Assembly: GCA_903912525.1 (NCBI GenBank)
Contig: CAIWHK010000032.1
Span: 310,001-374,000 of the forward strand
DNA from: an uncultured bacterium
GTDB lineage: Bacteria; Krumholzibacteriota; Krumholzibacteriia; LZORAL124-64-63
Length of the DNA stretch: 64,000 nucleotides
Direction of reading: 5' to 3'
Each line of letters opens with the position of its first letter. Position 1 is the stretch's first letter. This document shows positions 41,502 through 44,994 of the stretch, in pieces. Under the pieces are notes generated by a model that worked only from the letters and a program-made list of their open reading frames with translations, was not told where the DNA came from and did no database searches. The translations under genes and the position numbers were made by a program.

Positions 41502-41849
41502 ATGCCGGCCATTGCACGTACCGTGGCTCGCATGTGCCGCGACCTGGACACCGCCCGGCCTTTCGCCGGGACCCGGAATACCGCCCTGGCCCTGCTGGCC
41601 GCGGCGGCGCTCCTGCTGTCCCCACTCGCCGCGGACATCCACCACCATGGGTCGGACAGCCGGGCCGGCGACGACACCGGCTGCAGCGCCTGCCTCTGGC
41701 AGTCGCAGCACGTGGCCGCCCTGGTCACGGCGCCAGCGCCCGCGCTCGCAACGGTCGCCTTGCTGGCGGCCCCTGTCGCCCGGCTTCGCCACCCCCATGC
41801 CGAACTGCCGCGCCCGGCAGCCCGCGCCCCGCCCGCTCTCCACGCCTGA
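41502..41849 (+). CDS. Small exported His/Cys protein, probably metal-related (DUF2946-like)
   Basis: 115 aa if started at ATG 41502 (105 aa from ATG 41532; neither has a clear ribosome site). A single hydrophobic signal/anchor helix (TALALLAAAALLLSPLAA) is followed by DIHHHGSDSRAGDDTGCSACLWQSQH, a His triad plus CxxC arrangement able to bind metal. A second hydrophobic stretch and a Pro/Ala-rich tail with further His residues follow. Similar short proteins occur beside metal transport genes. Here it is the first gene before a beta-barrel protein and a ZnuA/ZnuB pair. The exact family assignment is uncertain. Confidence 0.6.
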   Translation: MPAIARTVARMCRDLDTARPFAGTRNTALALLAAAALLLSPLAADIHHHGSDSRAGDDTGCSACLWQSQHVAALVTAPAPALATVALLAAPVARLRHPHAELPRPAARAPPALHA

Positions 41850-41975
41850 CGCATTCCTGACACGATGCGAGATGCGACCCGGGACGCCCCCGGGAAGCTG
41901 GTATCGTCGCCTGCCCGCGCGCCGCCCGTTTCCGGGCGCCCCGCCGACCGGCGACCGACGTGGAGGTCCCACCAT

Positions 41976-43133
41976 ATGCCCATGCACGCCCTGCGGCGCC
42001 TGCCGGTCCTCGTGGCCGGAGTGGCCGCTATCTTCTGTTGCCTGCCGACAGGCGCCCGCGCCGGCGCCGGCAACCCGAACCTGTCGATCATCGCCCAGCC
42101 CCGCCTGACGGTGAGCAGCAATCCGGATGACCCGGCCCGCGATCGCCCCGTCTGGGACATCGGCGAGACCGAGATCATGCTCGACGACTACCTGAACCCG
42201 TACGTTCGCGGCAGCGTCGTCTTCGCCTATGCCGAGGACGAAGGCCTGGGCCTCGAGGAAGGCTATGTCGACGTGGTTCGCGGCCTGCCCGGCACCCTGA
42301 ACCTGCGCGTCGGCAAGTGGCGCTCCGCGTTCGGCAAGCTGAACCCGCAGCACCCGCACACGCAGCCGTTCGCCGAGCGCTTCGCGGTGCTCAGCGCCTT
42401 CCTGCCCGGCGACGAGTCGCTGAACGAGACCGGGCTGCAGGCCTCGGTGCGGCTGCCCGCGCCCGGCGACATCGCCCTCACCGCGTCGGCGGACTGGATG
42501 CAGGGCGATTCGTTCCGGCGGGATCGCGCGTCGTCCGGCCTGGAGTCCGACCCTCTCGACATCGTCGGCGGCATTGGCGATCGCGTCGATGAACCGCGTC
42601 CCGCCGTGCTCGGGCGCCTCAGCGCGTTCGCGCCGCTCGGGGAACGCTCGGGGCTCGAACTGGGGATGTCGGCCACCGAGGGCACCAACAACGTCGCCGC
42701 CGGCACGCGTACGCGCGTCGTCGGGTTCGACGCGAAGGCCAAGCTGTGGCGGAGCGAGCGGTCATACATCGTGCTGCAGGCCGAGGCGCTCAAGCTGACC
42801 CGCGAGGATGCCGGTTGGGACGGCGCCGCGTATACGAACGACGAAGTGGCGCCGTGGGGCTGGTACGCTTTCGCCGACTGGAACCTGGATCCACGCTGGA
42901 ACCTGGGCGCCTCGTACGAACGCTGGCAGCAGGATGCGGCCGACCCCGGCTGGAACCGCGCCACCGGCCTGTTCGCCGGCTTCGCCCTGATGGAGGAGAC
43001 CACGGCGCTGCGGATGGATTGGCGCCACGAACAGGCCGCGGCGCTGCCGGGCGAAGACGATCCGTCGGCCATCGACACGGTGACGCTGCGCGTCATCTGG
43101 TCGATGGGACCCCACAAGGCACACCAGTTCTAG
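41976..43133 (+). CDS. Outer-membrane beta-barrel protein of a metal-uptake locus
   Basis: 385-aa exported protein. The signal peptide (about 1-30) ends in TGARAGAG. The rest alternates in the way of a porin-type barrel, with NLRVGKWRSAFGKLNPQHPH, GLELGMSATEG, SYIVLQAEALKLTRE, WGWYAFADWNLDPRWNLGASYERW and a C-terminal Phe after a final strand (TLRVIWSMGP...HQF), the usual signal for BAM insertion. No TonB box or plug was recognised. It lies 10 nt upstream of the metal-binding protein gene, so it probably passes metal or a chelate through the outer membrane. A GGAGGT site stands 8 nt before ATG 41976. Confidence 0.78.
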   Translation: MPMHALRRLPVLVAGVAAIFCCLPTGARAGAGNPNLSIIAQPRLTVSSNPDDPARDRPVWDIGETEIMLDDYLNPYVRGSVVFAYAEDEGLGLEEGYVDVVRGLPGTLNLRVGKWRSAFGKLNPQHPHTQPFAERFAVLSAFLPGDESLNETGLQASVRLPAPGDIALTASADWMQGDSFRRDRASSGLESDPLDIVGGIGDRVDEPRPAVLGRLSAFAPLGERSGLELGMSATEGTNNVAAGTRTRVVGFDAKAKLWRSERSYIVLQAEALKLTREDAGWDGAAYTNDEVAPWGWYAFADWNLDPRWNLGASYERWQQDAADPGWNRATGLFAGFALMEETTALRMDWRHEQAAALPGEDDPSAIDTVTLRVIWSMGPHKAHQF

Positions 43134-43142
43134 GAGGACGAC

Positions 43143-43988
43143 ATGAGGAACCTGCTGCGACACCGGTTGCGCCGGCTGGGCGCGACCTCGGCCATCGTCG
43201 GCCTGCTGCTGGCCTTGTCCGGGAACACGACGGCCACCGCGGGCGAGAGCCGCCTGCGCGTGATCGCCTCCACCACCGACCTCGGCTCGATCGCGGCCGC
43301 GGTCGGCGGCGACCGCGTCGAGGTCGCGACCATCGCCCGGCCGGGCTCGGACGTGCACCGCGTCGAGGTCCTGCCCTCGTACATGGTGCGCGTGGCACGC
43401 GCCGATGTGTACCTGAAGGTGGGACTGGCGCTCGACGCCTGGGCCGACCAGATCATCGACGGTTCACGCAACACGAAGATCACGGTGGTCGACTGTTCAC
43501 GGCCCATCACGCCGCTGGACAGGCCGGCCGGCCGCGTCGACGGCCGCGCGGGCGACGTGCATCCGGACGGCAATCCCCACTACTGGCTGGACCCGCGCAA
43601 CGGCGCGTTGGTGGCGCAGGAGATCGCCAGCGCCCTCGGGAAGCGGGACCCGGCGCACGCCGCGGAATTCACGACGCGCGCCGAGGCCTTCGGCGCCGAG
43701 TGCCGCGCCCGCCATCAGGCAGTTGCGACAAGGCTGGCGGCCCTGCCGGTGCGCGAGATCCTGACCTACCACTCGTCGTGGGTCTACCTTGTCGCTGCGA
43801 CGGGACTGACGGTGGGCGCGACGGTGGAACCGGTGCCAGGCATCCCCCCGACCGGCGCGCACCTGCAGAAACTGGTCGACCTGGTCAAGGCGCGCGGCAT
43901 CCGCGTGCTGCTGCAGGAACCGTACTTCCCGGACGATGCCGCCGCCTTCCTGGCGCGCCAGACAGGGTTGCGAACCGTGAAGGTGTAA
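43143..43988 (+). CDS. znuA: Metal (Zn/Mn) ABC transporter substrate-binding protein, shortened by an in-frame stop
   Basis: Periplasmic cluster A-I (ZnuA/TroA-like) binding protein, 281 aa as read. Signal peptide about 1-33; mature start RLRVIASTTDLGSIAAAVGGDRVEV. Candidate metal ligands are His72 (SDVHRVEV), His140/His146 (DVHPDGNPHYWLDP), His210 (TYHSSWVYL) and Glu259 or the nearby Asp residues (LLQEPYFPDD). The reading frame stops at TAA 43986-43988, right after RTVKV. The same frame continues for 25 codons to TGA 44066 with SCDDATAGSYLAHFDAVAGA, which is the normal C-terminal helix of this family. A single CAA-to-TAA change would explain this. The protein may be truncated yet functional, read through, or a recent pseudogene. 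Confidence 0.85.
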   Translation: MRNLLRHRLRRLGATSAIVGLLLALSGNTTATAGESRLRVIASTTDLGSIAAAVGGDRVEVATIARPGSDVHRVEVLPSYMVRVARADVYLKVGLALDAWADQIIDGSRNTKITVVDCSRPITPLDRPAGRVDGRAGDVHPDGNPHYWLDPRNGALVAQEIASALGKRDPAHAAEFTTRAEAFGAECRARHQAVATRLAALPVREILTYHSSWVYLVAATGLTVGATVEPVPGIPPTGAHLQKLVDLVKARGIRVLLQEPYFPDDAAAFLARQTGLRTVKV

Positions 43989-44066
43989 CCGTCGTGCGAC
44001 GATGCGACGGCCGGCAGCTACCTGGCGCACTTCGACGCCGTGGCGGGCGCGATCGCCGCGCCCTGA
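43989..44066 (+). other. Orphaned C-terminal coding segment of znuA beyond the in-frame stop
   Basis: Twenty-five sense codons and TGA 44064-44066 in frame with znuA. The encoded SYLAHFDAVAGAIAAP matches the final helix expected in ZnuA-like proteins, so the TAA at 43986 interrupts what was recently a 307-codon gene. Confidence 0.75.
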
Positions 44067-44075
44067 CCCGATAGC

Positions 44076-44136
44076 CGGTGGTGGCGGTGTCGCGCATGGA
44101 GCGCCGGCCCCGCCACCGCCACGCCCCTACCGAAAG
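44076..44136 (+). repeat. Inverted repeat between znuA and znuB
   Basis: GGTGGTGGCGG (about 44080-44090) pairs at ten of eleven positions with CCGCCACCGCC (about 44110-44120), forming a possible stem-loop in the 79-nt gap. It might modulate expression of the permease relative to the binding protein. Confidence 0.45.
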
Positions 44137-44145
44137 CGGGGTCCC

Positions 44146-44994
44146 ATGGACGCCCTCGGCATGCCCTTCTTCCGCACGGCGCTCATCGCCTGCTTCCTGC
44201 TGGCCGGCATCCACGCCTACCTCGGCTTCCATGTCGTGCGGCGCGGGGTCATCTTCGTCGACCTGGCGCTGGCCCAGATGGCGGCGCTCGGCGTGGCGCT
44301 CGCCATCGTCCTGGGACGCCACGACGAAGGCCTGTTCACGTACGCGTTGGCCCTGGGCATGACGTTCGTGGGCGCGGCCTGCTTCGCCTGGCTGCGCAGC
44401 CAGGAACGGCGCCATGTGCCGCTCGAGGCGTTCATCGGCATCGTCTTCGCCACGGCGCAGGCCGCAGTGTTCCTGGTGCTCGAGAAGACGCCGGCCGGCC
44501 CCGAGCACCTGAAGGAAACGCTGGTCGGCACCCTGTTCACCATCGACCCGCGCCATGTCGCCAAGACCGCCGTGCTGTATGCCGTGATCGGCGTGGCGCA
44601 CTGGCTGCTGCGAAAGCCGTTCTTCGAGATCACGAGCGATGCGGAGGCGGCGCGAAGGCGCGGCCGTCGCCTGTTCTGGTGGGACTTCCTGTTCTACGCG
44701 ATCTTCGGCTTCGTGGTGACATCGTCGGTGCAGATCGCCGGCGTGCTGCTGGTCTTCGGCCTGCTGGTGATCCCCGCCGTGGCCGGGCTGATGGCCTCGT
44801 CACGCACGGGCGTGGCGCTCGCGGTGGGCTGGACGTTCGCGTTCGTCGGCTGCATCGCGGGGCTGGTCGGGTCGGTCAGGTGGGACCTGCCGGCGGCGCC
44901 GAGCGTACTGGTGGCGCTCAGCGGGCTGCTGGTCGTGACGGGTGTCGTATTGCCGTTGGCCAAAGGGCGCGGCCCCGGGAACGCCCCGAAGTGA
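44146..44994 (+). CDS. znuB: Metal (Zn/Mn) ABC transporter permease
   Basis: 282-aa inner-membrane permease of the ABC-3 family with about eight hydrophobic helices. Typical features are HVVRRGVIFVDLALAQMAALG near the N-terminus, FIGIVFATAQAAVFLVLEKTP, and the C-terminal FGFVVTSSVQIAGVLLVFGLLVIPAVAGL segment conserved in ZnuB/TroC proteins. It would form a homodimeric channel for metal delivered by the ZnuA-like protein. No ATPase gene lies nearby, so one must be supplied elsewhere. ATG 44146 has only a weak GCGGGG site. It is convergent with the helicase gene. Confidence 0.9.
   Translation: MDALGMPFFRTALIACFLLAGIHAYLGFHVVRRGVIFVDLALAQMAALGVALAIVLGRHDEGLFTYALALGMTFVGAACFAWLRSQERRHVPLEAFIGIVFATAQAAVFLVLEKTPAGPEHLKETLVGTLFTIDPRHVAKTAVLYAVIGVAHWLLRKPFFEITSDAEAARRRGRRLFWWDFLFYAIFGFVVTSSVQIAGVLLVFGLLVIPAVAGLMASSRTGVALAVGWTFAFVGCIAGLVGSVRWDLPAAPSVLVALSGLLVVTGVVLPLAKGRGPGNAPK

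Follow-up and report, generated by a model that had tools for sequence, protein, structure and literature searches.

The gene for a ZnuA-like substrate-binding protein in the DNA analyzed here (the window, the whole stretch of 64,000 nucleotides) ends early at an in-frame TAA. We consider it probable that this is a nonsense allele, truncated only recently, of a gene in an accessory cassette for metal uptake. On the plus strand, ATG 43143 opens a frame that TAA 43986-43988 closes after 281 amino acids; past the TAA, 25 in-frame sense codons encoding PSCDDATAGSYLAHFDAVAGAIAAP precede a TGA at 44064-44066. The tails of two intact same-genus homologs, PSCDDVAAGSYLAHFDAVVGAIAAP in L031 and PSCDGVTPDSYLAHFDAVVAAIAAP in L032, align to this post-stop stretch gap-free, which marks it as more than a chance open frame. 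A frameshift in place of the stop is ruled out, since the intact homologs cross the site without a gap. The original prediction had placed an in-frame TAA 25 codons ahead of the gene's natural end, as is present in the sequence, and its suggestion that the allele is recent and either null or attenuated is also the best reading of the evidence below, in which homologs read on past the site and the tail is still constrained. The features concerned are the following.

41532..41849, plus strand: small upstream open reading frame with HHH and CxxC motifs; weak likeness to DUF2946 (E 0.025, below the curated cut-off), and only a possible member of the cassette
41865..43133, plus strand: first gene of the cassette, for a putative outer-membrane protein of 386-422 amino acids, depending on the start chosen; no Pfam family at E 0.001, the outer-membrane assignment being based on the look of the sequence
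43143..43988, plus strand: truncated gene for a cluster A-I (ZnuA-like) metal substrate-binding protein of 281 amino acids, ending at TAA; 79% identity to the homolog in genome G001
43986..43988, plus strand: premature TAA; serine codon TCG at the same place in both intact same-genus homologs
43989..44066, plus strand: former 3' end of the binding-protein gene, now beyond the stop, with 25 codons plus TGA; PSC motif and predicted C-terminal helix
44146..44994, plus strand: intact ABC-3 family metal permease (PF00950, E 3e-33)

Relatives do not share the short end. A search of 58 genomes, the window's own included, gave matches at E ≤ 0.001 in 51, many of them distant paralogs, and a scan of a species-level genome collection yielded 58 loci (L031-L088). 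Three of these loci are cut by contig ends; the other 55 extend to the stop column, and every one of them continues for at least 21 residues past it, in a set that includes rows down to 33% identity and one locus (L047) with a masked tail. The comparison of relatives at this codon thus agrees with the earlier view that the stop is premature, with 0 of 55 homologs ending there and the short form not the norm. At the stop column the homologs carry Ala (18), Pro (15), Ser (12), Thr (9) or Asp (1), and never Gln. Four same-genus genomes were compared, the window's own among them, and two of these, G001 and G002, hold intact orthologs at 79% identity, in which the codon pair is ATG-TCG, vs GTG-TAA in the window. 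Going from TCG to TAA takes two substitutions and no homolog has glutamine, so that the proposed origin by a single change from CAA to TAA is unsupported. No second intact copy was found elsewhere in the window's genome, which returned only a 30% identical paralog and a 36-base DNA match, and no copies were found in plasmids (distant blastn) or in viral contigs.

A further in-frame stop was seen in G002, where a second contig carries the 5' part of the gene (93.9% identical to the main G002 copy over 938 bases) and ends inside it. This copy has a TAG at an invariant Glu codon (L074:5036), 252 bases from the contig end, and is either a strain variant or an artefact.

The codons beyond the window's stop retain signs of coding constraint. 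Tail dN/dS comes to 0.08 with G001 and 0.24 with G002 as partner, rough values that rest on about 20 synonymous sites. Of the window-specific tail changes, none falls at a first, two at a second and six at a third codon position; a hand calculation gives p ~0.02 for at least six of eight changes at third positions if the tail were unconstrained. For the part before the stop, dN/dS between the window and G001 is ~0.24 (0.17 for the mature part). Against G001 and G002 the mature gene gives 0.15-0.19, close to what these comparisons yield for the permease (0.12-0.14) and UvrD (0.14-0.16), and this indicates that general decay has not yet begun. Amino-acid changes specific to the window before the stop number 20, vs 13 for G001 and 17 for G002, a slight excess from which no clear relaxation can be read. 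Decay of the whole operon was also considered and showed no sign, the permease and outer-membrane genes being open and constrained; over all compared pairs, dN/dS of the outer-membrane gene, permease and UvrD is 0.12-0.19. Collectively, the constraint on the tail implies that the stop is either a late event on the window's branch, an unfixed variant or an error.

The last of these options leads to the main rival of a nonsense allele, unlikely in our judgement though the strongest of the alternatives, namely that miscalled bases or a variant from a minority strain entered the assembly and that the gene is intact in most cells. Tail constraint accords equally well with an error in the consensus and with such a minority variant, and a conserved tail without general decay fits both. 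Moreover, most relatives are titled as MAGs or as bins of uncultured isolates, and the window's genome, with its 72 contigs and completeness estimates, looks alike; its sister genome G002 has the similar TAG noted above, close to a contig end, where artefacts are likely. The TAA, however, is separated by ~30 kb of sequence from the closer end of contig C32, which is 384,031 bases long, and the genome is clean (97.75% complete, 0.24% contamination); a codon that differs from relatives at two bases also exceeds one random miscall. When window positions 41519-64000 were compared with the homologous G001 contig C169, using 24 composition-filtered open reading frames of at least 150 codons, 19 of the 24 matched the window and TAA 43986 was the sole within-gene stop among them; five further stops in the comparison fell in an antisense frame (one), in extensions overlapping the preceding gene (three) or directly before a TTG start (one).

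The protein belongs, as the original prediction held, to the ZnuA family (Pfam PF01297, E 2.9e-52, 178.2 bits against a curated cut-off of 29), and with the match covering profile positions 1-234 of 263, the profile end is unmatched. The AztC profile NF040870 scores 115.2 bits, below the NCBIfam cut-off of 350, and by its profile score the window protein is related to AztC but is not AztC. Its predicted structure has two lobes and a long linking helix (170-199), with Foldseek matches to AztC (5w57, E 2.5e-18), ZnuA (1pq4), YfeA and FpvC, the latter two named from structure titles. The AlphaFold2 model of the G001 homolog (mean pLDDT 94.9) has its last strand at 273-276, followed by a loop and a helix at 288-301, and the model of the truncated window protein (mean pLDDT 92.6, a confidence that is no test of stability) ends at strand 277-280, the last strand. 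The loss of the final helix of the C-terminal lobe, also part of the original prediction, accords with the G001 homolog model, but the helix is not lost alone, as the PSC motif goes with it.

Three histidines (His72, His146 and His210), which from knowledge of the family and from passages on AdcA we take to be metal ligands, are invariant in 33 aligned sequences; Glu259 is nearly invariant, and all four residues are retained in the short product. In a profile alignment with structures already solved, the Cys of the lost PSC motif falls on Glu280 of pneumococcal AdcAII, which is part of the metal site. Entry 7lm7, titled as an E280Q variant, has Q at the aligned place where the otherwise matching 3cx3, presumably AdcAII, has E. 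In the same alignment the MntA row (5hx7) has a gap, the MntA Asp is not placed on the PSC Cys, and the ZnuA rows stop at this point. Among 32 aligned homologs (alignment A1), the AdcAII Glu280 column holds Cys in 27 (residue 281 in L031) and Val in five, and the tail Ser and the tail Tyr are each kept in 30. In the related AdcA, zinc is held by three His and Glu279, according to passages of PMC7858048. This role of Glu279, together with the alignment of the PSC Cys to AdcAII Glu280, indicates that the position of the fourth ligand was likely in the lost tail, a view against which the gapped MntA row and the ZnuA rows that stop here count. A Cys at the place of Glu280 suggests a candidate metal site of three His plus Cys, a combination absent from the ligand sets named in the accessible passages of PMC7731109. 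Of the Glu or Asp (in some proteins water) that serves as fourth ligand after the last strand, the window protein has no counterpart, the aligned position lying in the lost tail. Group II members may use water as the fourth ligand, as passages of the same source describe (PMC7731109), and a missing fourth ligand alone does not therefore bar membership of cluster A-I.

The residues that survive in the short product also bear on a second alternative, that the protein works in its short form, can do without the last helix and the PSC motif, and tolerates ending at the stop. We regard this as improbable: the stop falls directly after the last predicted strand, the invariant histidines and Glu259 are kept, the truncated model is confident and five of the 32 aligned homologs have Val rather than Cys at the AdcAII-ligand column, yet none of the 55 homologs ends at this position, the tail Ser and Tyr are almost always kept and the tail is still constrained. 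Programmed readthrough or a reassigned TAA, either of which would yield the full-length protein and the former of which the original prediction had entertained, deserves hardly any credence, because even with a constrained tail in the same frame the TAA is a normal stop here, closing another conserved window gene without extra codons (61738-60728, minus strand), none of the 42 tRNAs typed by ARAGORN among 43 matches (one, at the start of contig C29, being untyped) has a stop-reading anticodon, and 0 of 55 relatives have a stop at this site. An alternative genetic code or suppressor tRNA was rejected as unsupported by this tRNA set and by the normally TAA-ended gene.

If the allele is a nonsense allele, as we favor, a stop after the last predicted strand would cost the protein its last helix along with the residue that lines up with the AdcAII metal ligand, the 281-residue product would fold poorly or bind metal weakly, and a weak or unfolded binding protein would leave the importer off or much weakened. 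Loss of the helix and of the ligand-position residue points to such loss of function; against it stand the three His and Glu259 that remain and the confident truncated model, and against the nonsense-allele reading itself counts that TCG and TAA are two substitutions apart rather than one.

The cell may bear the loss, with a paralogous transporter set elsewhere in its genome and a same-genus draft, G003, seemingly without the cassette. The paralogous set, on contig C69, brings together a second binding protein (30% identical), an ATPase, recognized by motifs and matches without a family scan, and a permease, and all four genus members have matches to these three proteins. The match to the paralogous permease in G002 (G002:C572:6741-7559, L103) contains one in-frame TGA. 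In Paracoccus, AztC and ZnuA are 25% identical and do not share permeases, according to passages of PMC7731109, and by this analogy the C69 paralog probably could not feed the cassette permease; it could bring in metal by its own route. In G003 the outer-membrane gene is unmatched, the binding protein and permease are matched only at paralog level, and a paralogous ATPase-bearing metal transporter is present. This genome appears to lack the cassette, an absence that may be a gap given its draft state (93% complete, 180 contigs).

A permease lies downstream of the binding-protein gene in 55 of the 58 loci. With the C69 ATPase as single query, 47 of these 55 showed no ATPase-like match in the 1.5 kb around the cassette. 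The outer-membrane gene is present in 45 of the 47, and in 31 of them the sequence extends for 1.5 kb or more on both sides. Eight loci do have an ATPase-like match nearby: five titled as Melioribacter or Bacteroidetes, where it sits between binding protein and permease and the permeases are ~22-25% identical to that of the window, and three others (L060, L067 and L068), in L067 on the opposite strand. Permease matches at E ≤ 1e-40 occur in 37 of 80 genomes of the class and, by record titles, the cassette without a nearby ATPase-like match (window 41865-44994, L031-L088) is spread over several phyla. Stretches similar to the small open reading frame at 41532-41849 were also seen upstream in L031 and L074. 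The cassette may borrow an ATPase. More tentatively, and with considerable doubt, we propose that the truncated protein belongs to a distinct optional cassette of a putative outer-membrane protein, a three-His plus Cys binding protein and an ABC-3 permease, which itself lacks an ATPase and has to rely on one encoded elsewhere, perhaps that of the paralogous ZnuABC-type set, and that the window's genome is losing this cassette. A literature search on truncated ZnuA, ATPase-free metal transporters and stop errors in MAGs turned up neither a title nor an abstract that deals with this case.

Taken by itself, the stop is most likely an ordinary loss of recent date in a single genome, and it carries a caution, in that an automated pipeline would probably annotate this place as a normal metal-binding protein of 281 residues. 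A cassette found across several phyla, with no neighboring ATPase and with Cys for the expected Glu or Asp, raises the questions of ATPase sharing and of the metal carried, and is a more testable matter than the stop.

Compared with cluster A-I proteins (ZnuA, AdcAII, AztC and TroA), the window protein is alike in its Pfam ZnuA family, its fold and its three invariant histidines, whereas it ends 25 codons early and in most of its intact relatives Cys takes the place of AdcAII Glu280. Nonsense pseudogenes of bacterial transporter binding proteins offer the other comparison: the window gene resembles them in its single in-frame stop, its otherwise intact frame and its recent constraint, but its stop is late, and with only 25 codons lost, partial function is possible.
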